DNA of 22,373 nt from a virus. Within the stretch, counting starts at the first letter, position 1, and every line of letters starts with the position of its first letter. The notes under the pieces are model-generated. The model saw nothing but the letters and a program-made list of their open reading frames with translations. It was not told the DNA's origin and did not search any database. The DNA is taken from the IMG/VR virus record IMGVR_UViG_3300010885_004823, positions 1 to 22,373 of that record; one strand, given 5' to 3'. Both the position numbers and the translations under genes were made by a program. Positions 7,875-22,373 of the stretch are shown piece by piece.

Positions 7875-8126
7875 TTACTTTGTTTGTTTGAGGGCTGCTT
7901 TGGTGGAGTGTATGTAGTCGTTGATCTGTTCAGCGTATCTGGGATAGGGGACAGAGCCCCCTTTAAACCAGTTGTAAATAGTCATCCGGCTTACACCGAA
8001 CTCCTCTGCAATACTGCTGACACCAATGTTGGCGCGAATACATACACGCCCCAAAGCCACACCCAGAGACTTGATACTTGCTGTTTTATTGGCGCACACC
8101 AAGCTCCGGCTGTAACCATAGGACAT
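7875..8126 (-). CDS. Small helix-turn-helix DNA-binding protein, 83 aa
   Basis: Residues ~34-56 (IGVSSIAEEFGVSRMTIYNW) form a textbook helix-turn-helix, with a tail rich in Lys. The protein is short, soluble and basic, so it is either a transcription regulator or a small initiator-like DNA-binding protein. Ribosome site GAGGAG lies 5 bases before the ATG and overlaps the end of the ssDNA-binding-protein gene. It sits between that gene and the primase-helicase, far from any lysogeny cassette in view, so calling it a CI-type repressor would be unjustified. It is a candidate for binding the shared TTGACAATGTAAA or TAACA-NN-TGTTA sites, but nothing in the sequence proves that. Confidence 0.8.
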   Translation of the reverse strand: MSYGYSRSLVCANKTASIKSLGVALGRVCIRANIGVSSIAEEFGVSRMTIYNWFKGGSVPYPRYAEQINDYIHSTKAALKQTK

Positions 8127-14789: not shown

Positions 14790-15269
14790 TCATACCTTCT
14801 TCGGTTTAATTGCTCTCATACGTTTCTGTTTAAAGTCCTCAATGACTAGCTTGAATGCAGCGCCCATATCTTTCACAGTGATGACCTCAAGCTGCGCATC
14901 GTGTAGCTCCATCACCACATTGAGTGCGTCCATCTCCGATGCCTTGAGCACAAACCGACCTGACTCCGCACCGCGTACACCTACCTCGTACAGCGCATCC
15001 AGCCCAGCGCGTACCTCTGGGAAGTAGTCACGCCCAAAGCCTAAGCGGTACAACGCTTCAACAATGTTGACTGCCTGTATCAGCGCATCGATGTCCTTGC
15101 GGGTAGCAACGCCTCGGGTCAACGCAGTCAACGCATCGTGGTTCTTGATCTTCAGGTCAACCAAGAAACTGTCGTGCTGCGCCACCGGGGTGATACTCTC
15201 CAGTACGTAAGCTAGCGGGTTCTGTAGCACGGGCTTTGGCCTGTACTTGCTACGTTTGCGCATCAGCAT
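14790..15269 (-). CDS. Hypothetical phage protein, 159 aa, directly after the polymerase
   Basis: The basic N-terminus RKRSKYRPKPVLQNPLAYVL is followed by an all-helical body (KNHDALTALTRGVA, DIDALIQAVNIVEALYRLG). Similar 'RKRSKYRPK..' proteins are, as far as I know, widespread in Burkholderiales phages without assigned function. Two starts are possible: ATG at 15269, overlapping the polymerase end by 7 bases, or ATG at 15263, sharing TGATG with the polymerase stop. The second gives 157 residues beginning MRKRSKY and is equally credible. No catalytic or membrane features are seen. Confidence 0.78.
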   Translation of the reverse strand: MLMRKRSKYRPKPVLQNPLAYVLESITPVAQHDSFLVDLKIKNHDALTALTRGVATRKDIDALIQAVNIVEALYRLGFGRDYFPEVRAGLDALYEVGVRGAESGRFVLKASEMDALNVVMELHDAQLEVITVKDMGAAFKLVIEDFKQKRMRAIKPKKV

Positions 15270-17929
15270 GCTCCGTAGTTGCTACCGTACCCAGCCTCGC
15301 AGTTCAAGGGCAACTCCATGCCCCAATCTGGCCGTGTACGCATGCACATTTCAACGTATTCTTTAGCGGTCTCAACCTGTTCAGTCGGTACGATACAAGC
15401 AATTGCGTCATGCACGGTCATGACCACTCTGTATTTCTTGGCAACCATAAGCATCTGCTCACCGATCACAATCCGAGCCAAGGCTTGACACACGTTCTCA
15501 ATGACTTTGCCACCGTAGATGCGTGTCGGAATGACTGCCTTACCCTTCTTCGTGTCGTACACAAGCTCAATTTCACCGTCATCGTCTTGGAGCTTACGCA
15601 AGTTGGGGTAACGCAGGTACAAACCATTGGGGAGCAAAACACCGCCGCTACCTTCAATCTTTAAGACATCGCCCCGGCCCAACGTTGTCTGCTGGTTCTG
15701 GAGTATGGCCTTGAGTGCTGACGCGGCAGACTTCCAGAGTTCAACAATCTTCGGGTACGTTGCGCGGTACGTGTCGATGATGCGCTTGGCCTCGTCAAGT
15801 TCAATCCCCACATTAAAGTTCTTAAGTTGTGCCTGAAACTTTGCTGCGCCCATACCGTAGCCGCAGTTATGGACAATCATCGGCCCCTGTGCTGTTAAGA
15901 CCGTGTAACGATTTTTCGGCCCTGCGTAAGCGAGATCGTAAGTTTGCAATTTCCGACTCAAGGGTTGCAACTTTTCGTTTGTTTTTAAGGTTGGCGCTCC
16001 GGGATACAAATTGGATGTTGTCGGGCTCATAATTTCCGTTAACATCAATCCTATCCATTTCAAAACTTGGAACATCCCACCCCTTAAGCGTTTGTGCATA
16101 CTGAAGAAACGAGGCTCGGTTCTCCCGCCATTGCTTGTGTACTGATATACCGCGCCCCCCGTAGTGCAAATATGCTCTGTTAGTTGCAGTGTGGCACCGA
16201 CCAATCGCGGAGGACAACCGATTGAGTAAGCGTTCCCTATGTTCGTCGTTAGGCAGTACCTCGGCGTAACCCCAATATAGCTTGCGAGTTTTTGCAGCCG
16301 ATTTTTTAGCGCAAATATCGCATCTTGTACTTTTAAAGTTCTTAAAGTTTTGATGGTCAACGGTGTACTCTGGTAGTCCGCAATCGCATTGGACAATGAG
16401 TGCGCGTACCCCCCGTCTTTCCCCGGCGAGATAGCCTGTAACGGTAAGTTTTCCGCTCCTGTACCCAATGCTTGGCAAAGGGTATTTGCGTCGGCTACCA
16501 CTGATTGCGCTTCCAACCATTGCGTCCCGCACAATACTTTGTGATCTGGCGTCAACCAGAGCCCTAAGAGACTCAGCGTTTCTTTCTCGCCTTTCGGCAC
16601 TAATCCTTGATGGCATACCCATTCCTCCCCATCCCAAAGTTTGTCTTCCGAGGTTACCTGTTCGATAGGCTTCCATCCTGAGCCACATAGTACCATAGAC
16701 CCAGCACCAATGCAACCTAAAATTGTTGTCTTACCTACGAATCTCTCGTCCTTTGTAATCTGCAATACGTCCTTGCCATAGATAGCCGATGCCATGATTT
16801 TGTAAACGTCCTCGCCCCGATCAAATGCGTCTACCAGATCATTCTGTTCTGCAAGCCATGCCAGCGTACGCGCTTCAATCTGTGATGAGTCCGAGTCAAT
16901 CATCATGTAGCCGTCCGGTGCTTCGATAGACTTCTTCAGCGGAGATGTGCGTTGCAAGTTCTGCAAGTTAATCTTGTCGTCACCGCCCCAGCGTCCAGTG
17001 TGTGCGGCGTAGTAGCGTAGGGGTACAGGCATTGGGCCTCGTGAAGCAATCCCAATGAACCTCTCAGTCCTCGTCTCTTCAATGGTTGACTTAGTTCCCA
17101 ACCGTGCCGCAACCAATACTTGCACATTTGCATTCTCATGCTCCAGTAGGGCTTTGAACGCTTCATCCGTCTTAGAGAATGCGTAAGTCTGCTTGCCGTT
17201 GGTAGGGCTCTTCTTCATCGGCGGCACAACATTTAGATCGCGGAGTAAGTCGGCAAACTTAGGGTTACTCATCAAGGTGTCTTTGTCGAAGTTGCTCAAT
17301 ATCTCTGTTTTGCGCATCCTCTCTAACTCAAGATGCAGGTCTAACATCCCCTTGTCCAACTGCAATACTGGCTCGGTGAACATACGCACGGTCAAGTCGA
17401 TCAGGCGCAGTTCAATCTTTGGGAAGCCCTTGCTCATTTGCCCAAACAAATCCCACGTAAGGGCAACGTCATTCTTGCAATACTCACCGTACCGTGCTAA
17501 CTGCTCGGGGCTGAAGTCGGTGCGGTGCAGACCCAAGGCGTTCTCGACCTCTGTGCCTTTCTCGCCAAGACCGTAATGTTGAGCCAAGACTTTTAAACTT
17601 CCGCCTACTTCAGTACCGTGTAGCGCCCTACCCATGGACAATGTATCAAGCCAGCCTTTGGGCCTGAGTCCGAATACCCAGTTCAAAATTGCACCGTCGA
17701 ACGGGGCGTTGTGCGCGAGGGCCAAAGAGTTCGCCCAATCAAACTGACTGAGGAACTGGTGCATGGCTTCAGCATCGCCACTGAACCACTGGGGCTCACC
17801 ATCGTCTACCTGTACCGCAGCACCGATAACCTCAAACTGGGGGCTACGAATGTATTCCTCCGTGGTAACTTTCGTTAATGAAAACTCCCGAGAATAAAAA
17901 GACTCAAAATCAATCGTCAGGATTTTCAT
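15263..17929 (-). CDS. Family A DNA polymerase with 3'-5' exonuclease, interrupted by an intein
   Basis: The replicative polymerase of the phage. The precursor is 888 residues; removing the intein (406-688) leaves 605. Exonuclease motifs: TIDFES (D7, E9), AHNAPFD (73-78) and YCKND (150-154). Polymerase motifs: HTGRWGG with INLQNLQR (~310-327), motif A DSDSSQIEAR (D345), motif B from R396 through K400-TTILG, resuming after the intein as CGYGMG, and motif C VHDAI (H840-D841). All catalytic residues are present; there is no 5'-3' exonuclease domain, as usual for phage enzymes. The start overlaps the upstream gene (ATGA, 17926-17929). The intein splits the O-helix, so unspliced protein should be inactive and splicing is required for replication. 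Confidence 0.95.
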   Translation of the reverse strand: MKILTIDFESFYSREFSLTKVTTEEYIRSPQFEVIGAAVQVDDGEPQWFSGDAEAMHQFLSQFDWANSLALAHNAPFDGAILNWVFGLRPKGWLDTLSMGRALHGTEVGGSLKVLAQHYGLGEKGTEVENALGLHRTDFSPEQLARYGEYCKNDVALTWDLFGQMSKGFPKIELRLIDLTVRMFTEPVLQLDKGMLDLHLELERMRKTEILSNFDKDTLMSNPKFADLLRDLNVVPPMKKSPTNGKQTYAFSKTDEAFKALLEHENANVQVLVAARLGTKSTIEETRTERFIGIASRGPMPVPLRYYAAHTGRWGGDDKINLQNLQRTSPLKKSIEAPDGYMMIDSDSSQIEARTLAWLAEQNDLVDAFDRGEDVYKIMASAIYGKDVLQITKDERFVGKTTILGCIGAGSMVLCGSGWKPIEQVTSEDKLWDGEEWVCHQGLVPKGEKETLSLLGLWLTPDHKVLCGTQWLEAQSVVADANTLCQALGTGAENLPLQAISPGKDGGYAHSLSNAIADYQSTPLTIKTLRTLKVQDAIFALKNRLQKLASYIGVTPRYCLTTNIGNAYSIGCPPRLVGATLQLTEHICTTGGAVYQYTSNGGRTEPRFFSMHKRLRGGMFQVLKWIGLMLTEIMSPTTSNLYPGAPTLKTNEKLQPLSRKLQTYDLAYAGPKNRYTVLTAQGPMIVHNCGYGMGAAKFQAQLKNFNVGIELDEAKRIIDTYRATYPKIVELWKSAASALKAILQNQQTTLGRGDVLKIEGSGGVLLPNGLYLRYPNLRKLQDDDGEIELVYDTKKGKAVIPTRIYGGKVIENVCQALARIVIGEQMLMVAKKYRVVMTVHDAIACIVPTEQVETAKEYVEMCMRTRPDWGMELPLNCEAGYGSNYGAC
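15867..16616 (-). CDS. HNH homing endonuclease nested out of frame inside the intein, 249 aa
   Basis: Frame -1 (+2) relative to the polymerase. It starts at ATG 16616 (MPSRISAERR), with GGAGG 7 bases upstream; an ATG at 16622 and a TTG at 16715 are less likely. A Cys4 zinc ribbon (C77, C79, C99, C102) precedes the HNH core: HYGGRGISV (151-159), W163, MDRID (187-191), GNYEPDNI (194-201) and KNKRK (211-215). This is the arrangement of freestanding phage homing endonucleases ('YGGRGI..W...F...LdRiD..GnY.p.N..w'). A C-terminal charged helix follows. The TAA stop (15869-15867) is made by the intein's last His-Asn codons CAT AAC. It probably cuts intein-free polymerase genes and so spreads the intein. 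Nearly all its codons also code for intein. Confidence 0.88.
   Translation of the reverse strand: MPSRISAERRERNAESLRALVDARSQSIVRDAMVGSAISGSRRKYPLPSIGYRSGKLTVTGYLAGERRGVRALIVQCDCGLPEYTVDHQNFKNFKSTRCDICAKKSAAKTRKLYWGYAEVLPNDEHRERLLNRLSSAIGRCHTATNRAYLHYGGRGISVHKQWRENRASFLQYAQTLKGWDVPSFEMDRIDVNGNYEPDNIQFVSRSANLKNKRKVATLESEIANLRSRLRRAEKSLHGLNSTGADDCP
16623..16630 (-). promoter_or_regulatory. Internal Shine-Dalgarno of the nested HNH gene
   Basis: GGGGAGGA on the minus strand, 7 bases before ATG 16616. In the intein frame these bases encode the end of WDGEE just after block A. It decides the start of the nested gene. Confidence 0.75.
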
Positions 17930-18672: not shown

Positions 18673-18700
18673 ATTGTACCCCATCTCTTTACATTGTCAA
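18673..18700 (-). promoter_or_regulatory. Sigma70-type promoter of the VRR-NUC/polymerase block
   Basis: On the minus strand: -35 TTGACA (18700-18695), 16-base spacer, -10 TACAAT (18678-18673). It shares CTATTGACAATGTAAA with the promoter at 9540-9567. The predicted start is near 18666. It lies 10 bases after the T-tract of the upstream terminator. Confidence 0.85.
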
Positions 18701-18710
18701 TAGTACAGAC

Positions 18711-18734
18711 GTAAAAAAGCCACCCGAAGGTGGC
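18711..18734 (-). terminator. Rho-independent terminator ending the right-hand gene block
   Basis: On the minus strand: GCCACC, loop TTCG, GGTGGC, then six T. The UUCG-type tetraloop and T-run make it a strong intrinsic terminator. It lies 35 bases after the DUF3310 gene and separates that block from the next promoter. Confidence 0.93.
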
Positions 18735-18752
18735 TAGTATTTTCCCTAACTC

Positions 18753-18766
18753 CTAACAATTGTTAG
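18753..18766. repeat. Palindromic site A (CTAACAATTGTTAG)
   Basis: A perfect 14-bp palindrome 2 bases after the stop of the DUF3310 gene and upstream of the terminator. One of five sites with the core TAACA-NN-TGTTA, all located in the right-hand block. Confidence 0.8.
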
Positions 18767-18768
18767 CG

Positions 18769-19251
18769 TTACTTGGTTGAATTAATCTCGCGTGTCAGAT
18801 ACCACTGCGCCTTGCGCAAGTCCTCCAGCTTGTTGCCCTTGTGCTCGGCACGAGTGATGTACTTCACTACGTTGCCAAGGTTGTAGCTCAGCTTCTTCGC
18901 ATCAATAAAGTCAATCGTCTCGATTCCACCTACGATGTAATGGGCAGGCTGATTCACCGGGTCATGCATGGTTATAGGCAATGGGGTTGCTCCCTGCATC
19001 AAACTCTTGCCCGTTATGGGATGCACTCGCCTACCCGCACCCGCCGCGTACACCATCGCGTCCATAAACTTGTCGCTTGTATTGGTCACCGTATCCTCGA
19101 CGGTTGGGGCTTCTTCGCTCTTCCGCTTTTTCACGTTCCACAATACGTTGTAGACATAGCTGCTCTGCATACCTAATGCTTTAGCAATTGCACCCGCCTT
19201 GGCGTTGGGGTGTTTGGCAGCGTACTTACGGATTGATTCTGACATACTCAT
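18769..19251 (-). CDS. DUF3310 protein with N-terminal helix-turn-helix-like segment, 160 aa
   Basis: Residues ~96-157 match DUF3310: DPVNQPAHYIVGG, IETIDFIDAKKLSYN, GNVVKYITRAEHKG and LEDLRKAQWYL. The function of DUF3310 is unknown; it is abundant in phages and sometimes annotated as nucleotide kinase-like without proof. The N-terminal ~40 residues (KYAAKHPNAKAGAIAKALGMQSSYVYNVLWNV) look like a winged or helix-turn-helix DNA-binding segment, an addition to the usual short domain. The start at 19251 overlaps the stop of the previous gene (ATGA), with GGAG 7 bases upstream. It is the last gene before the terminator at 18711-18734. Confidence 0.88.
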   Translation of the reverse strand: MSMSESIRKYAAKHPNAKAGAIAKALGMQSSYVYNVLWNVKKRKSEEAPTVEDTVTNTSDKFMDAMVYAAGAGRRVHPITGKSLMQGATPLPITMHDPVNQPAHYIVGGIETIDFIDAKKLSYNLGNVVKYITRAEHKGNKLEDLRKAQWYLTREINSTK

Positions 19252-19451
19252 AGTTTTACTCCGGTTTGGTTATTAACATACTCGGTAAGAATTTCCCTCA
19301 TCTTGGCTTGCTTTGTATACGCAAAATTTGTGTTGAAGTAATTCATCACATGCTCTGGTAGACGCAAGCTCGTGCAAGCTAGGGCGGCTTTCTTACCTAA
19401 CCCCCTGCCCTTGCGTTGCTTTTCTAATTTCAAATTCTCAATTCCTGACAT
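19248..19451 (-). CDS. Small ribbon-helix-helix-like protein, 67 aa
   Basis: Basic N-terminus (KLEKQRKGRGLGKKA), then TSLRLPEHVMNYFNTNF followed by KQAKMREILTEYVNN. The beta strand 'TSLRLPEHV' plus two helices fits a ribbon-helix-helix DNA-binding fold as in small phage repressors and antitoxins. No toxin partner is adjacent. It is therefore a candidate to bind the nearby TAACA-NN-TGTTA palindromes, as such folds recognise short dyads; this is inference. It overlaps the 53-residue gene by 14 bases and the DUF3310 gene by 4. Confidence 0.68.
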   Translation of the reverse strand: MSGIENLKLEKQRKGRGLGKKAALACTSLRLPEHVMNYFNTNFAYTKQAKMREILTEYVNNQTGVKL

Positions 19452-19599
19452 ACGCAGCCCCCTTGGTTATGCGGATAAGCAGTCGTGCCTTGCGCCATGT
19501 TTTACGTATGTCCGTATTGCTAGGGCTATACCACTTGAACTTGGGGTCGGTGCACTTGCGTAGTGGCATAACCTTTGATTTATATTTAATCTCTTCCAT
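19438..19599 (-). CDS. Small basic hypothetical protein, 53 aa
   Basis: Starts MEEIKYKSKVMPLRKC with GAAGGAG 6 bases upstream, 1 base after the stop of the 292-residue gene. An upstream in-frame ATG lies before the ribosome site and is unlikely. Lys/Arg-rich (TWRKARLLIRITKG), so nucleic-acid contact is plausible. No family is recognised. Palindromic site B lies directly upstream of its ribosome site. Confidence 0.65.
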   Translation of the reverse strand: MEEIKYKSKVMPLRKCTDPKFKWYSPSNTDIRKTWRKARLLIRITKGAAYVRN

Positions 19600-19600
19600 C

Positions 19601-20479
19601 TCATGCTCCTTCGCTAACATTTGTTAGGTCACCTGCCAGCAATACGAATATCTCACTTGTCACCTTGCAGCCTATGTCGGTAAGATACTCTCCATCTTGC
19701 ACCAACTTGAGCATACCCAGCTTCATCCGTACATCCAAAGGGAGGCTATTATCGTCGTACAGTTGGATGTCGTCACCTACCTTGACTAGGTACTTACCAG
19801 AATCTTTGACCACAAGTAATGTCTTCTCATCATCAAAGTCTTTTTGGACACGCTCGATAGTTCGCAGTTCTACATTGAGTATCGTCAGCATTTCTATGCT
19901 AGTAGTAACCTCTTGCTTGACCTTGAGTACGGCTTCGTTCTCGATGGACTCTAAAAACATGTCGTAGCCCTTGGTCTGAACCCACGCCAACATTGCGGAA
20001 TTCAAGGTAAGTTTATGCCCGTTGCGCTCACGCTCTTTGCTATACCCAGCGTTGCTTACTACCCGTTGTGCATCACTCGTAGCCTTCTCAACGCGCTCAC
20101 TGGAGTTCATCCTGCCGAACATCTTCTTCGCTGTGAGGATGGCTTTCTCTGGGCTCTGGGTACGGTAAGAGTCTGACCTCTGCCGAGTCTTACCAATACG
20201 ATCATTGGAGATAGATATCAAGCGGCGCTGGCCTACGTGCGCTGTATTAATCTTGCCCAATGGTTCACCATCCAGCTTGACTACGAACGCAGTTGCCATA
20301 CCTTTCTCGAATCCGTAACCCCCACAGGCGACAACAACAAATGTCCACAGCGGATTCAACGTAGCCAGTCGGCTAATTACGGGGTCAAGCTGGTTGTACA
20401 CCCCCGTCAAAGCTATACCGCCCTCCCGCACTTTCTCATCAACCACGATGTTGCTGAGCCCCAATGTTTTCATACTCAT
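19601..20479 (-). CDS. Hypothetical protein, 292 aa
   Basis: Starts MSMKTLGLSNIVVDEKV with AGGAG 8 bases upstream, just after palindromic site C; in-frame codons further upstream run through the ribosome site and are rejected. The N-terminal third is mixed alpha/beta (LWTFVVVACGGYGF, a Gly-rich stretch, not a P-loop); the middle is charged and helical; the C-terminal part contains KYLVKVGDDIQLYDD and ends near LLAGDLTNVSEG. I recognise no domain. It lies in a block with DUF3150-like and VWA genes, so it could be a client or adaptor of that module. Its last codons contain palindromic site B. Confidence 0.8.
   Translation of the reverse strand: MSMKTLGLSNIVVDEKVREGGIALTGVYNQLDPVISRLATLNPLWTFVVVACGGYGFEKGMATAFVVKLDGEPLGKINTAHVGQRRLISISNDRIGKTRQRSDSYRTQSPEKAILTAKKMFGRMNSSERVEKATSDAQRVVSNAGYSKERERNGHKLTLNSAMLAWVQTKGYDMFLESIENEAVLKVKQEVTTSIEMLTILNVELRTIERVQKDFDDEKTLLVVKDSGKYLVKVGDDIQLYDDNSLPLDVRMKLGMLKLVQDGEYLTDIGCKVTSEIFVLLAGDLTNVSEGA
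19614..19627. repeat. Palindromic site B (CTAACATTTGTTAG)
   Basis: Lies inside the last codons of the 292-residue gene (encoding LTNVS), immediately upstream of the ribosome site of the 53-residue gene. Core TAACA-NN-TGTTA is intact. Confidence 0.75.
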
Positions 20480-20490
20480 ATTCATTACTC

Positions 20491-20504
20491 CTAACAAATG
20501 TTAT
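20491..20504. repeat. Palindromic site C (CTAACAAATGTTAT)
   Basis: Fills the gap between the DUF3150-like gene and the 292-residue gene. On the minus strand its right arm runs straight into the ribosome site (TGTTAGGAG), so a bound protein would cover translation or transcription signals. Confidence 0.8.
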
Positions 20505-21353
20505 TTACCACTCAAACTTACCGAGAATCGCATCGACCTTTGACTTGAGGTTTCCGCGCACCAATGCGTCATCCTTGACCTCTTCGATGTCGGCTCCAAG
20601 CATGGCTAGCTCTACTTGCCTACGTGCATCTTCCAGCTTGGGGTCGTTGGTCACATTCAACTTGGTCAGCAACTCGCACAACTCAATAGGATTGCTGAGC
20701 AGTGAGTCGTGATACCGCTTCTTGCCGTCCCCTGTATCCTCCAGCTTCTTGGACATACCCAAGAGAACCTCGTGTAGACGCTCCCACGGTGTCCGCATCG
20801 CATCGGCCAGCTTCTCCGAGTACTGGGTTTCATACGCACTCCTCATCTCCTCCAAGTCATTCGCTGGAATGTCCAAGCGGAAGTCGCCTGCCTCGGGTAG
20901 TGGCTTCACACTGCGCCTGAAACTGAACTTAGTCCTAACAGATGTTAGGTCGGGGTAGTCCTCTGCCTTGTACATACCAGCGAGGTTTACCTTGGCATCC
21001 TGCACCAATGTCTCGTACTCATCAAAGAAGTTCTCGCACAACAGGTTGAACGTACGCTCGTAACCATTCATAGTCTGCTTGTAGTCCATGAATAGTTTGG
21101 TCGGCAACATGCGCTCACCCTTGTCAGCCCACGGCAACGTGTGCTGGTTGTGATACAGACGTACCCTCGCGGCAAACTTCTCGATGTCTGCTCGTAGGCT
21201 TGTACCCGCAAATAGATTCTTCTTGGTCTGTGAAGCGTCTTTGTGTGCAGATGCACTTGCGTTGACTTGGTTCGTAAGCTCCCGGTCAATCTTGGCCGCT
21301 GGCCATACGCTAAGGTTCAACTCTACTAACACTGCTGATGCGCTGATACTCAT
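20505..21353 (-). CDS. DUF3150-like protein, 282 aa
   Basis: Starts MSISASAVLVELNLSVWPA at 21353, with GGAG upstream and 1 base after the previous stop; a longer frame to 21407 would run into the upstream gene. Features of the DUF3150 type: an early Trp/Lys segment, a KKNLFAG/RADIEKFAARVR helix, the HQHTLPW-like box (YHNQHTLPWADKGERMLP), FFDEYETLVQ, and a segment with Arg/Phe/Arg (GDFRLDIP). DUF3150 proteins usually lie beside a MoxR-type AAA ATPase and a VWA protein and probably work with them. The function is unknown. Palindromic site D is within this gene. Confidence 0.75.
   Translation of the reverse strand: MSISASAVLVELNLSVWPAAKIDRELTNQVNASASAHKDASQTKKNLFAGTSLRADIEKFAARVRLYHNQHTLPWADKGERMLPTKLFMDYKQTMNGYERTFNLLCENFFDEYETLVQDAKVNLAGMYKAEDYPDLTSVRTKFSFRRSVKPLPEAGDFRLDIPANDLEEMRSAYETQYSEKLADAMRTPWERLHEVLLGMSKKLEDTGDGKKRYHDSLLSNPIELCELLTKLNVTNDPKLEDARRQVELAMLGADIEEVKDDALVRGNLKSKVDAILGKFEW
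20935..20948. repeat. Palindromic site D (CTAACAGATGTTAG)
   Basis: Within the DUF3150-like coding sequence; arms extend to 16 bp (20934-20949, CCTAACA..TGTTAGG). Far from any start codon, which is unusual for an operator. Confidence 0.75.
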
Positions 21354-21354
21354 T

Positions 21355-21606
21355 TCATTTCTCCTGTGGTTTTCCGGCCAACTTAGCCATCTGATACTTG
21401 CTGTCACCTACTATGCTCATACCAAAAACGGTGTCGAGCGGGTATACATGGTGTGTGTAACTCTCGGTCATACCCAACGCCATGCGCTTCTCCGAATCCC
21501 AATACTTCTCTTCGTATACTTCAGCATTCTCTAGACAATCGATAAGTACGAATGCCTTCTCACGCGGCAATATAATTTTGCGATAACCCAAATCAATAAC
21601 TACCAT
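21355..21606 (-). CDS. Small hypothetical protein, 83 aa
   Basis: Starts MVVIDLGYRKIILPREKAFV at 21606 with AGGAG 7 bases upstream; the longer frame to 21687 runs through the end of the VWA gene and palindromic site E and is rejected. The N-terminal part looks like two beta strands and a helix (REKAFVLIDCLENAEVYEEKYW). No family is recognised. It lies between the VWA and DUF3150-like genes, with its stop 1 base before the next ATG. Confidence 0.72.
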   Translation of the reverse strand: MVVIDLGYRKIILPREKAFVLIDCLENAEVYEEKYWDSEKRMALGMTESYTHHVYPLDTVFGMSIVGDSKYQMAKLAGKPQEK

Positions 21607-21616
21607 ATCTGAACTC

Positions 21617-21630
21617 CTAACAATTGTTAT
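21617..21630. repeat. Palindromic site E (CTAACAATTGTTAT)
   Basis: Lies in the short gap between the VWA gene stop (21647) and the 83-residue gene start (21606), again fused to the ribosome site (TGTTAGGAG on the minus strand). Confidence 0.8.
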
Positions 21631-21646
21631 AGACCACCTACTAAAA

Positions 21647-22373
21647 TTAATCCTTGACGCGAATCGTTTTGCCATTGCCTGCAACACAATCGTTTCCTCC
21701 TACGATAGCCCACAGTACGGGCGCAGTCCAATCGGAACCCCAATCGCCACCCACGAATCCATCGGTCAATACGATGATGCACTCAGGCTCAATGCGCTTG
21801 TCTTTCAAGTACGCTGATATGCAAGACGGGCTCGTACCCCCACCACCCTTGGGCTTGGTAGAGTTGATGATGTTGGATACATCGTTCTCGGTGTACTCCT
21901 CATGCGCAGCCACCCGGCTGTCCCAATAGATCAAGTCCACTTGGCTCGGCTTTACTTCTTCTGCGATACCCTTAACCTCGGAAAGTATTTCTTCCAGCGC
22001 ATCAAACACCGAACCCGATGCGTCAACGGCAATCACCATGCGGCCAACTCTTTCTCCAATGAGACTCGGCATGTAAACGCCTGTACTCAGGAACCTACGG
22101 TTCACCCTACGCCACGAGGACGTATCCTTTGCACTGCATGTAGACTTTACGAACTCACGCAGCATCTCGCGCCAGTTGACCTTGGGCTCAAGCAAGTCAA
22201 GCAAGTCACGGTCAAGCCCACCACCACCAGCACCCGCAATCTTCTGGTGCGCCATTACCCCTTGGCGAATAGCTTGGTCGATGTCGCGCTCAAGTTCTTT
22301 CTTGTCAGCCTCGGTCATCTCTTTGGCCCCGGCCCAGTCGTGGTCATCAAAGCCTGTACCTTCGCCCGTACCT
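21647..22373 (-). CDS. VWA-domain protein (DUF2201/VWA-like type), N-terminus outside window
   Basis: The frame stays open to the right edge, and the residues before the first ATG (22318) read GTGEGTGFDDHDWAG, a Gly/Asp-rich linker typical of this family, so the gene is cut by the window. The visible part has a metal-ion-dependent adhesion site: VDASGSV (DxSxS), GGGGTSP (Thr) and LTDGFVGG (Asp), all intact. VWA proteins of this kind act with MoxR-type AAA ATPases as chaperone-like or metal-insertion modules; the DUF3150-like gene two genes downstream is the usual companion. A MoxR-type ATPase is expected beyond the right edge. The target in the phage is unknown. Confidence 0.9.
   Translation of the reverse strand, partial: GTGEGTGFDDHDWAGAKEMTEADKKELERDIDQAIRQGVMAHQKIAGAGGGGLDRDLLDLLEPKVNWREMLREFVKSTCSAKDTSSWRRVNRRFLSTGVYMPSLIGERVGRMVIAVDASGSVFDALEEILSEVKGIAEEVKPSQVDLIYWDSRVAAHEEYTENDVSNIINSTKPKGGGGTSPSCISAYLKDKRIEPECIIVLTDGFVGGDWGSDWTAPVLWAIVGGNDCVAGNGKTIRVKD

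Follow-up and report, generated by a model that had tools for sequence, protein, structure and literature searches.

In the cluster A mycobacteriophages, such as L5, Bxb1, and TipsytheTRex, 20–30 stoperators are dispersed genome-wide, at promoters and mostly in short intergenic gaps (PMC9283540, PMC6550527). Stoperators are 13–14 bp sites without dyad symmetry, which are bound by a monomer, are oriented with transcription and belong to temperate phages, and their motif and the phage repressor diverge together between phages (PMC9283540, PMC6550527). In plasmid RK2, global control of the replicon involves KorB, a ParB-type cytidine triphosphate (CTP) clamp, and its operator OB, one short palindrome found at many places, 4–10 bp or 45 to >1,000 bp upstream of promoters (PMC11790492). 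Here we analyzed a stretch of 22,373 bases, henceforth the window, which is the entire virus record IMGVR_UViG_3300010885_004823 of IMG/VR and carries five copies of the palindrome TAACA-N2-TGTTA in its early gene block. Lambdoid Cro and CI also act at palindromic sites, of ~14–17 bp, but their operators are few and overlap promoter cores; cro is the first gene of the early operon and damps early transcription. On balance, and with moderate confidence, we favor the reading that the TAACA sites are operators at which a dyad-binding protein, encoded by the phage itself, controls the early block. This protein would be FGP, which the first early gene encodes, a new repressor that acts as a dimer and shuts the block off, mostly by blocking elongation in the manner of stoperators.

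Like the stoperators, this locus repeats one short site many times, at promoters and in short gaps; 51% of the sites are near gene starts, and their positions are linked to promoters. However, the full site is a perfect dyad, CTAACA-N-TGTTAG, and not asymmetric; it is palindromic and not oriented, its A/T centers occurring both ways (41 vs. 46 in sets with 1 bp between the half-sites, called spacer-1 below); and the 10–22 sites lie nearly all in one early block and not genome-wide. In-gene sites and a variable spacer set the locus further apart, as does the lack of an integrase: a search of 12 records, which may be incomplete, revealed neither a tyrosine nor a serine recombinase, and the phages are therefore probably lytic. 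A repressor homologous to Rep, that of cluster A, would be a further shared feature; FGP gave no match in family, sequence, and fold searches. With three defining features missing (asymmetry, orientation, and genome-wide spread), the locus, as far as this comparison goes, appears to work like the stoperators but is not a member of their system, and "stoperator-like", the term of the original prediction, is the best functional analogy. With KorB-OB it shares one short palindrome at many places, but here most of the sites stand downstream of a promoter or in a gene start. The ParB_N domain (PF02195) was found in none of the 12 possibly incomplete records, in which controls matched, and this is therefore not a KorB system.

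Distribution and conservation of the dyad

The window contains five exact matches to TAACA-N2-TGTTA and none beyond those five, as had been predicted, while 100 dinucleotide shuffles of the window gave a mean of 0.01 exact matches and no shuffle reached five. Relaxing the motif to two mismatches produced no excess over chance in the window. No other 5-mer palindrome is repeated as often as this motif in the window, and the same holds for almost all close relatives; a reversed control pattern gave no match. Three sites are intergenic (18754, 20492, and 21618) and two are coding (19615 and 20936), as first described, although each position had been given one base too low, and the genes around them are all on the minus strand. 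The claim that two sites are fused to ribosome sites has to be reworded, as GGAG follows all three intergenic ones, but the GGAG at 18754 is not a ribosome site because only a terminator, and no gene, comes next.

Relatives were collected with the 282-amino acid (aa) DUF3150-like protein of the window, which matched >130 IMG/VR contigs, and the sites recur in >130 related contigs. Nearly all phages with ≥87% identity in this protein share the site set, with up to 19 copies. Near-complete relatives (60–66 kb) carry 10–22 sites, all or nearly all of them within one early block of 7–15 kb, bounded by packaging genes that run leftward on one side and by the replication operon on the other; a single stray match falls beyond the block, in record G053. 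This count over near-complete genomes, which the original prediction had proposed as its test, thus places the motif in the early block and not genome-wide. When 460 distinct sites are compared, the dyad proves to be longer, CTAACA-N-TGTTAG, with the outer C present in 75–86% and the outer G in 84–90%. The phage family is uncultured and is without a cultured relative in the databases searched: among cultured phages neither the DNA of the early block nor FGP had a match, the DUF3150-like protein had matches of 28% only, and the genome contigs searched held no relative.

Some variants stand beside the exact dyads. L187 (9,243 bases) has no TAACA site but two CTAAGA-N2-TCTTAG dyads and one further CTAAG-N4-CTTAG dyad, possibly a half-site change in the same system. 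The long leader ahead of the second early promoter is rich in half-site-like repeats, TGTTA and GTTACG, in addition to its exact dyads (L006 1–470, L057 1600–2200, and L021 3800–4000), and in one subgroup (L072, L073, L075, L079, and L087) the asymmetric variant TAACANNAGTTA occurs at conserved places next to spacer-1 sites.

In the MoxR-like ATPase the peptide TASNIVRTR is nearly invariant, and its S-N-I-V-R (K in one) is written as TCT AAC ATT GTT AG(A/G), which is a spacer-1 site, in 14 loci and with other codons, without a site, in 27 loci. Although the DNA of L078 and L081 is 84% identical, L081 lacks six of the seven L078 sites, coding ones included, and the sole site retained precedes the replication promoter. 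At the window coding site 20936, TAAC-N4-GTTA is retained in 37 of 40 close relatives; dyad-less relatives mostly read L-E-x-V-K, with glutamate and lysine in place of the threonine and arginine found with the dyad. The inner T of this dyad is gone in many relatives (GAA codon), and weaker versions therefore persist. Judged from these alignments, the sites are clearly under selection at the DNA level, the in-gene dyads arising by codon choice where the same peptide is otherwise encoded in dyad-less phages. Chance or codon coincidence is ruled out by the shuffles, the controls, and the synonymous-site tests. The earlier proposal of dispersed sites of a dyad-binding protein, with no coding coincidence, has stood up well, as the sites recur from contig to contig among the relatives, keep to the early block and are maintained through the choice of synonymous codons; their conservation at synonymous positions in related phages, on which that proposal depended, was seen.

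Placement around promoters and the proposed shut-off

Within the early blocks we examined 91 distinct strong sigma70-like promoters, measuring the nearest site center against the predicted start. The nearest site lies at +30 to +89 in 64 of them (70%; random expectation 7%) and at −80 to −100 in 21 (23%; random expectation 5%), and it is far off in 6. None of the 91 has a site at −45 to +20, that is over the promoter core, where random placement would give 8%; this is unlike Cro and CI and rules out classical promoter-occluding operators. A promoter at each site was also considered and was rejected, the enrichment being weak (17% vs. 7%). The early promoters are near the sigma70 consensus, with scores of up to 11.4. 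Only 12% of the sites would be expected at gene starts, against the 51% given above, and the start ATG lies inside 76 sites. The sites are spread more evenly than random placement would give, and the median gap between them is 608 bp. In loci with a clear P1, the promoter from which FGP would be made, the center of the upstream site is 63–69 bp from the −10 element.

The dyad, its flanks, and the occurrence of both center orientations point to a dimer on double-stranded DNA, and since the sites are downstream of promoters, never over cores, and repeated along the operon, we propose an early shut-off by FGP through an elongation block. FGP would be made first, accumulate, and then occupy the 10–22 sites, be they in the leader of a main early promoter, at an internal gene start, within a gene, or at either end of the block. 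RNA polymerase would be halted at the filled sites and the early block would be turned off, while FGP and the replication operon would still be expressed because the cores of P1 and of P3, the replication promoter, are free of sites. The site past the FGP stop codon and the last site, ahead of the terminator, may insulate the block.

FGP, spacer classes, and rival explanations

FGP (~170 aa) is encoded by the first rightward gene of the early block; the record is a fragment which stops within the VWA gene, so that the window contains neither the FGP gene nor the remainder of the early block. All 38 distinct FGP loci with at least 2 kb downstream have 5–21 sites, with one 30–112 bp past the FGP stop in 36 of them and one ≤260 bp upstream in 31, while phages with an unrelated first gene (L140–L142 and L176) have no site in the block. 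FGP is the best candidate for the binder, and we infer that it binds and represses, as a homodimer whose geometry sets the spacer. In L093 (9006–9572; record G013) an unrelated 188-aa open reading frame (ORF) with its own strong promoter stands as the first early gene instead of FGP, and its phages have no site in the block. A search for other motifs or enriched palindromes in the site-poor phages G013, L065, and L176 found none.

The spacer differs by phage, being 1, 2, or 3 bp, and entire sets are shifted through single-base insertions or deletions (indels). Certain relatives have 12–19 spacer-1 sites and no spacer-2 site, and others have 10–16 spacer-3 sites. Between L207 (spacer 3) and L198 (spacer 2), single-base indels separate the sites at the same places in DNA which is mostly 91–95% identical; L197 and L200 likewise differ in spacer at the same places, both pairs being 91–97% alike over most of the aligned DNA, and same-place differences between spacers 1 and 2 separate L057 from L175. 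The spacer class follows the type of FGP, A going with 2, B with 1, and C (L189) with 3. The FGP tree requires two changes of spacer label, not counting two truncated contigs with the label "none", against five each on the trees of the DUF3150-like protein and of the ribbon-helix-helix (RHH)-like protein, and seven on that of HTH83, the 83-aa helix-turn-helix (HTH) protein, whose rows differ. It is plausible, though we put it forward tentatively, that FGP is a new regulator family and that the operator sets are specificity classes which differ only in half-site spacing; classes would switch by exchange of FGP, after which single-base indels would convert 10–20 operators, the mixed-spacing genomes (L054 with 11 + 6 sites, L206 with 15 + 5, and L068 with 18 + 4) being living intermediates.

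Several points weigh against these roles of FGP. It had no match in Pfam, PHROGs, PDB sequences, or folds, so that linkage is the sole argument for its DNA binding; the searches were made by single sequence because the full FGP alignment has no conserved stretches, its model (mean predicted local distance difference test score, pLDDT, 77) had no informative fold match, and the likeness of its C-terminal helices to the PadR hairpin (Z 4.7) is not meaningful. Contigs were called FGP-less by tblastn, by which a distant FGP could be missed, and the site-poor first-gene types are few (L081/L140–L142, L176, and perhaps L065). The label counts come from differing row sets, most of all for HTH83, and from quick trees with long branches, tightly linked early genes can be co-inherited, and spacer 3 is represented by one FGP. 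A single regulator may tolerate two spacings, as the mixed genomes show. Finally, the site at about −77 of P1 would also suit an activator.

Positive action through the same sites and FGP is the main rival: FGP would activate P1 and, by anti-pausing or antitermination, would load on, or relieve, polymerase at the sites in leaders and at gene starts. The fixed distance to the P1 −10 element is a position which upstream activators use, and sites stand right after promoters and right before terminators. We consider this unlikely, as promoters so near to consensus should not need an activator, and antitermination sites are known as RNA or promoter elements, not as many in-gene palindromes. Binding by another phage protein, namely HTH83, the RHH-like protein, or the HTH-DUF3310 protein, was the original suggestion. 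All three are phage-encoded with plausible DNA-binding folds, and HTH83 occurs in almost every record that has sites and extends as far as its gene. However, HTH83 and RHH are near-unchanged in phages with 0–1 site (L166 and L168 share HTH83, L083 and L078 share RHH), and neither of them follows the spacer class on the trees given above. This is unlike Arc/Mnt-type operators, whose presence and type go with an RHH protein, and unlike lambdoid operators, whose type goes with an XRE-type HTH regulator. In addition, a fold search with the RHH model returned nothing informative, and L086 has 12 sites with a DUF3310 protein lacking the HTH part. We therefore disfavor all three and hold such a binder to be quite improbable.

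A host regulator, the spacer classes mirroring different hosts, seems very improbable, because the sites follow a phage gene subtype and disappear with it, and the closely similar pairs L207/L198 and L197/L200 still differ in spacer at the same places. An RNA-level element, in which a start codon-bearing site such as TAACAAATGTTA would serve as translational operator or mRNA processing site, would suit the 76 sites with a start ATG and the excess near gene starts. Yet the sites upstream of P1 are not in the P1 transcript, the last site is followed by a terminator and not by a gene, both center orientations occur, about equally in spacer-1 sets, and the dyad stem is AT-rich and of 4–5 bp at most; we give this explanation very little credence. 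Multi-copy palindromes in one block recall centromere arrays, but sites for partition, packaging, or replication instead of gene control are scarcely credible, given the lack of ParB_N in the 12 records and positions which are fixed relative to promoters and gene starts. FGP as a repressor acting on elongation remains the reading we prefer.

Window features and implications

The features of the window are listed in Table 1. The ATG within site 2 (19615) shares its reading frame with the small gene that follows. Outside the early block, the PolA gene of the window (15263–17929, minus strand) encodes 888 aa vs. 605 aa in most relatives, with an intein-like insert of ~283 aa (about 15867–16715) which starts with CIGAGSMVLCG, contains TPDHKV, and ends with IVHNC. 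A second ORF (282 aa) in another frame spans this insert almost exactly; it looks HNH endonuclease-like by eye and has no Pfam match.

Table 1. Sites, signals, and genes of the window discussed in the text
Feature	Position	Strand	Remarks
Site 1, TAACAATTGTTA	18754..18765	-	Last of block; 3' of DUF3310 gene, directly before terminator and promoter P3
Site 2, TAACAAATGTTA on coding strand	19615..19626	-	3' end of 292-aa gene, codes D-L-T-N-V-S
Site 3, TAACATTTGTTAGGAG	20492..20503	-	Gap between DUF3150-like gene and 292-aa gene; fused to ribosome site
Site 4, CCTAACATCTGTTAGG	20936..20947	-	Within 282-aa DUF3150-like gene; CTA ACA TCT GTT AGG = L-T-S-V-R
Site 5, TAACAATTGTTAGGAG	21618..21629	-	Gap between VWA gene and 83-aa gene; fused to ribosome site
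Intrinsic terminator AGCCACC-TTCG-GGTGGCT-TTTTT	18713..18735	-	End of early block; predicted from sequence
Promoter P3, TTGACA-16-TACAAT	18673..18700	-	Opens replication operon, itself site-free
282-aa DUF3150-like gene	20505..21353	-	Query for finding relatives
DUF2201 VWA gene, 3' part	21647..22372	-	Cut by record end
292-aa early gene, function unassigned	19601..20479	-	
67-aa RHH-like protein	19248..19451	-	Candidate binder, disfavored
HTH-DUF3310 protein	18769..19251	-	Candidate binder, disfavored
83-aa Cro/CI-like HTH protein (HTH83)	7875..8126	-	Candidate binder, disfavored

Taken as proposed, FGP and its sites point to an unrecognized phage regulator family and a multi-site early control system, and, as the spacer shifts in step with differing versions of one regulator gene, to what looks like a new and rapidly re-tuned system of gene control. 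How a regulator and a dozen or more operators change together is a long-standing question, and these phages make it directly testable because they offer close relatives with one-base-shifted sets, mixed genomes, and candidate gene types which match the classes. If the proposal is true, they would hold a natural record of the regulon-wide re-tuning of dimer geometry, and possibly immunity-like groups among phages without an integrase.

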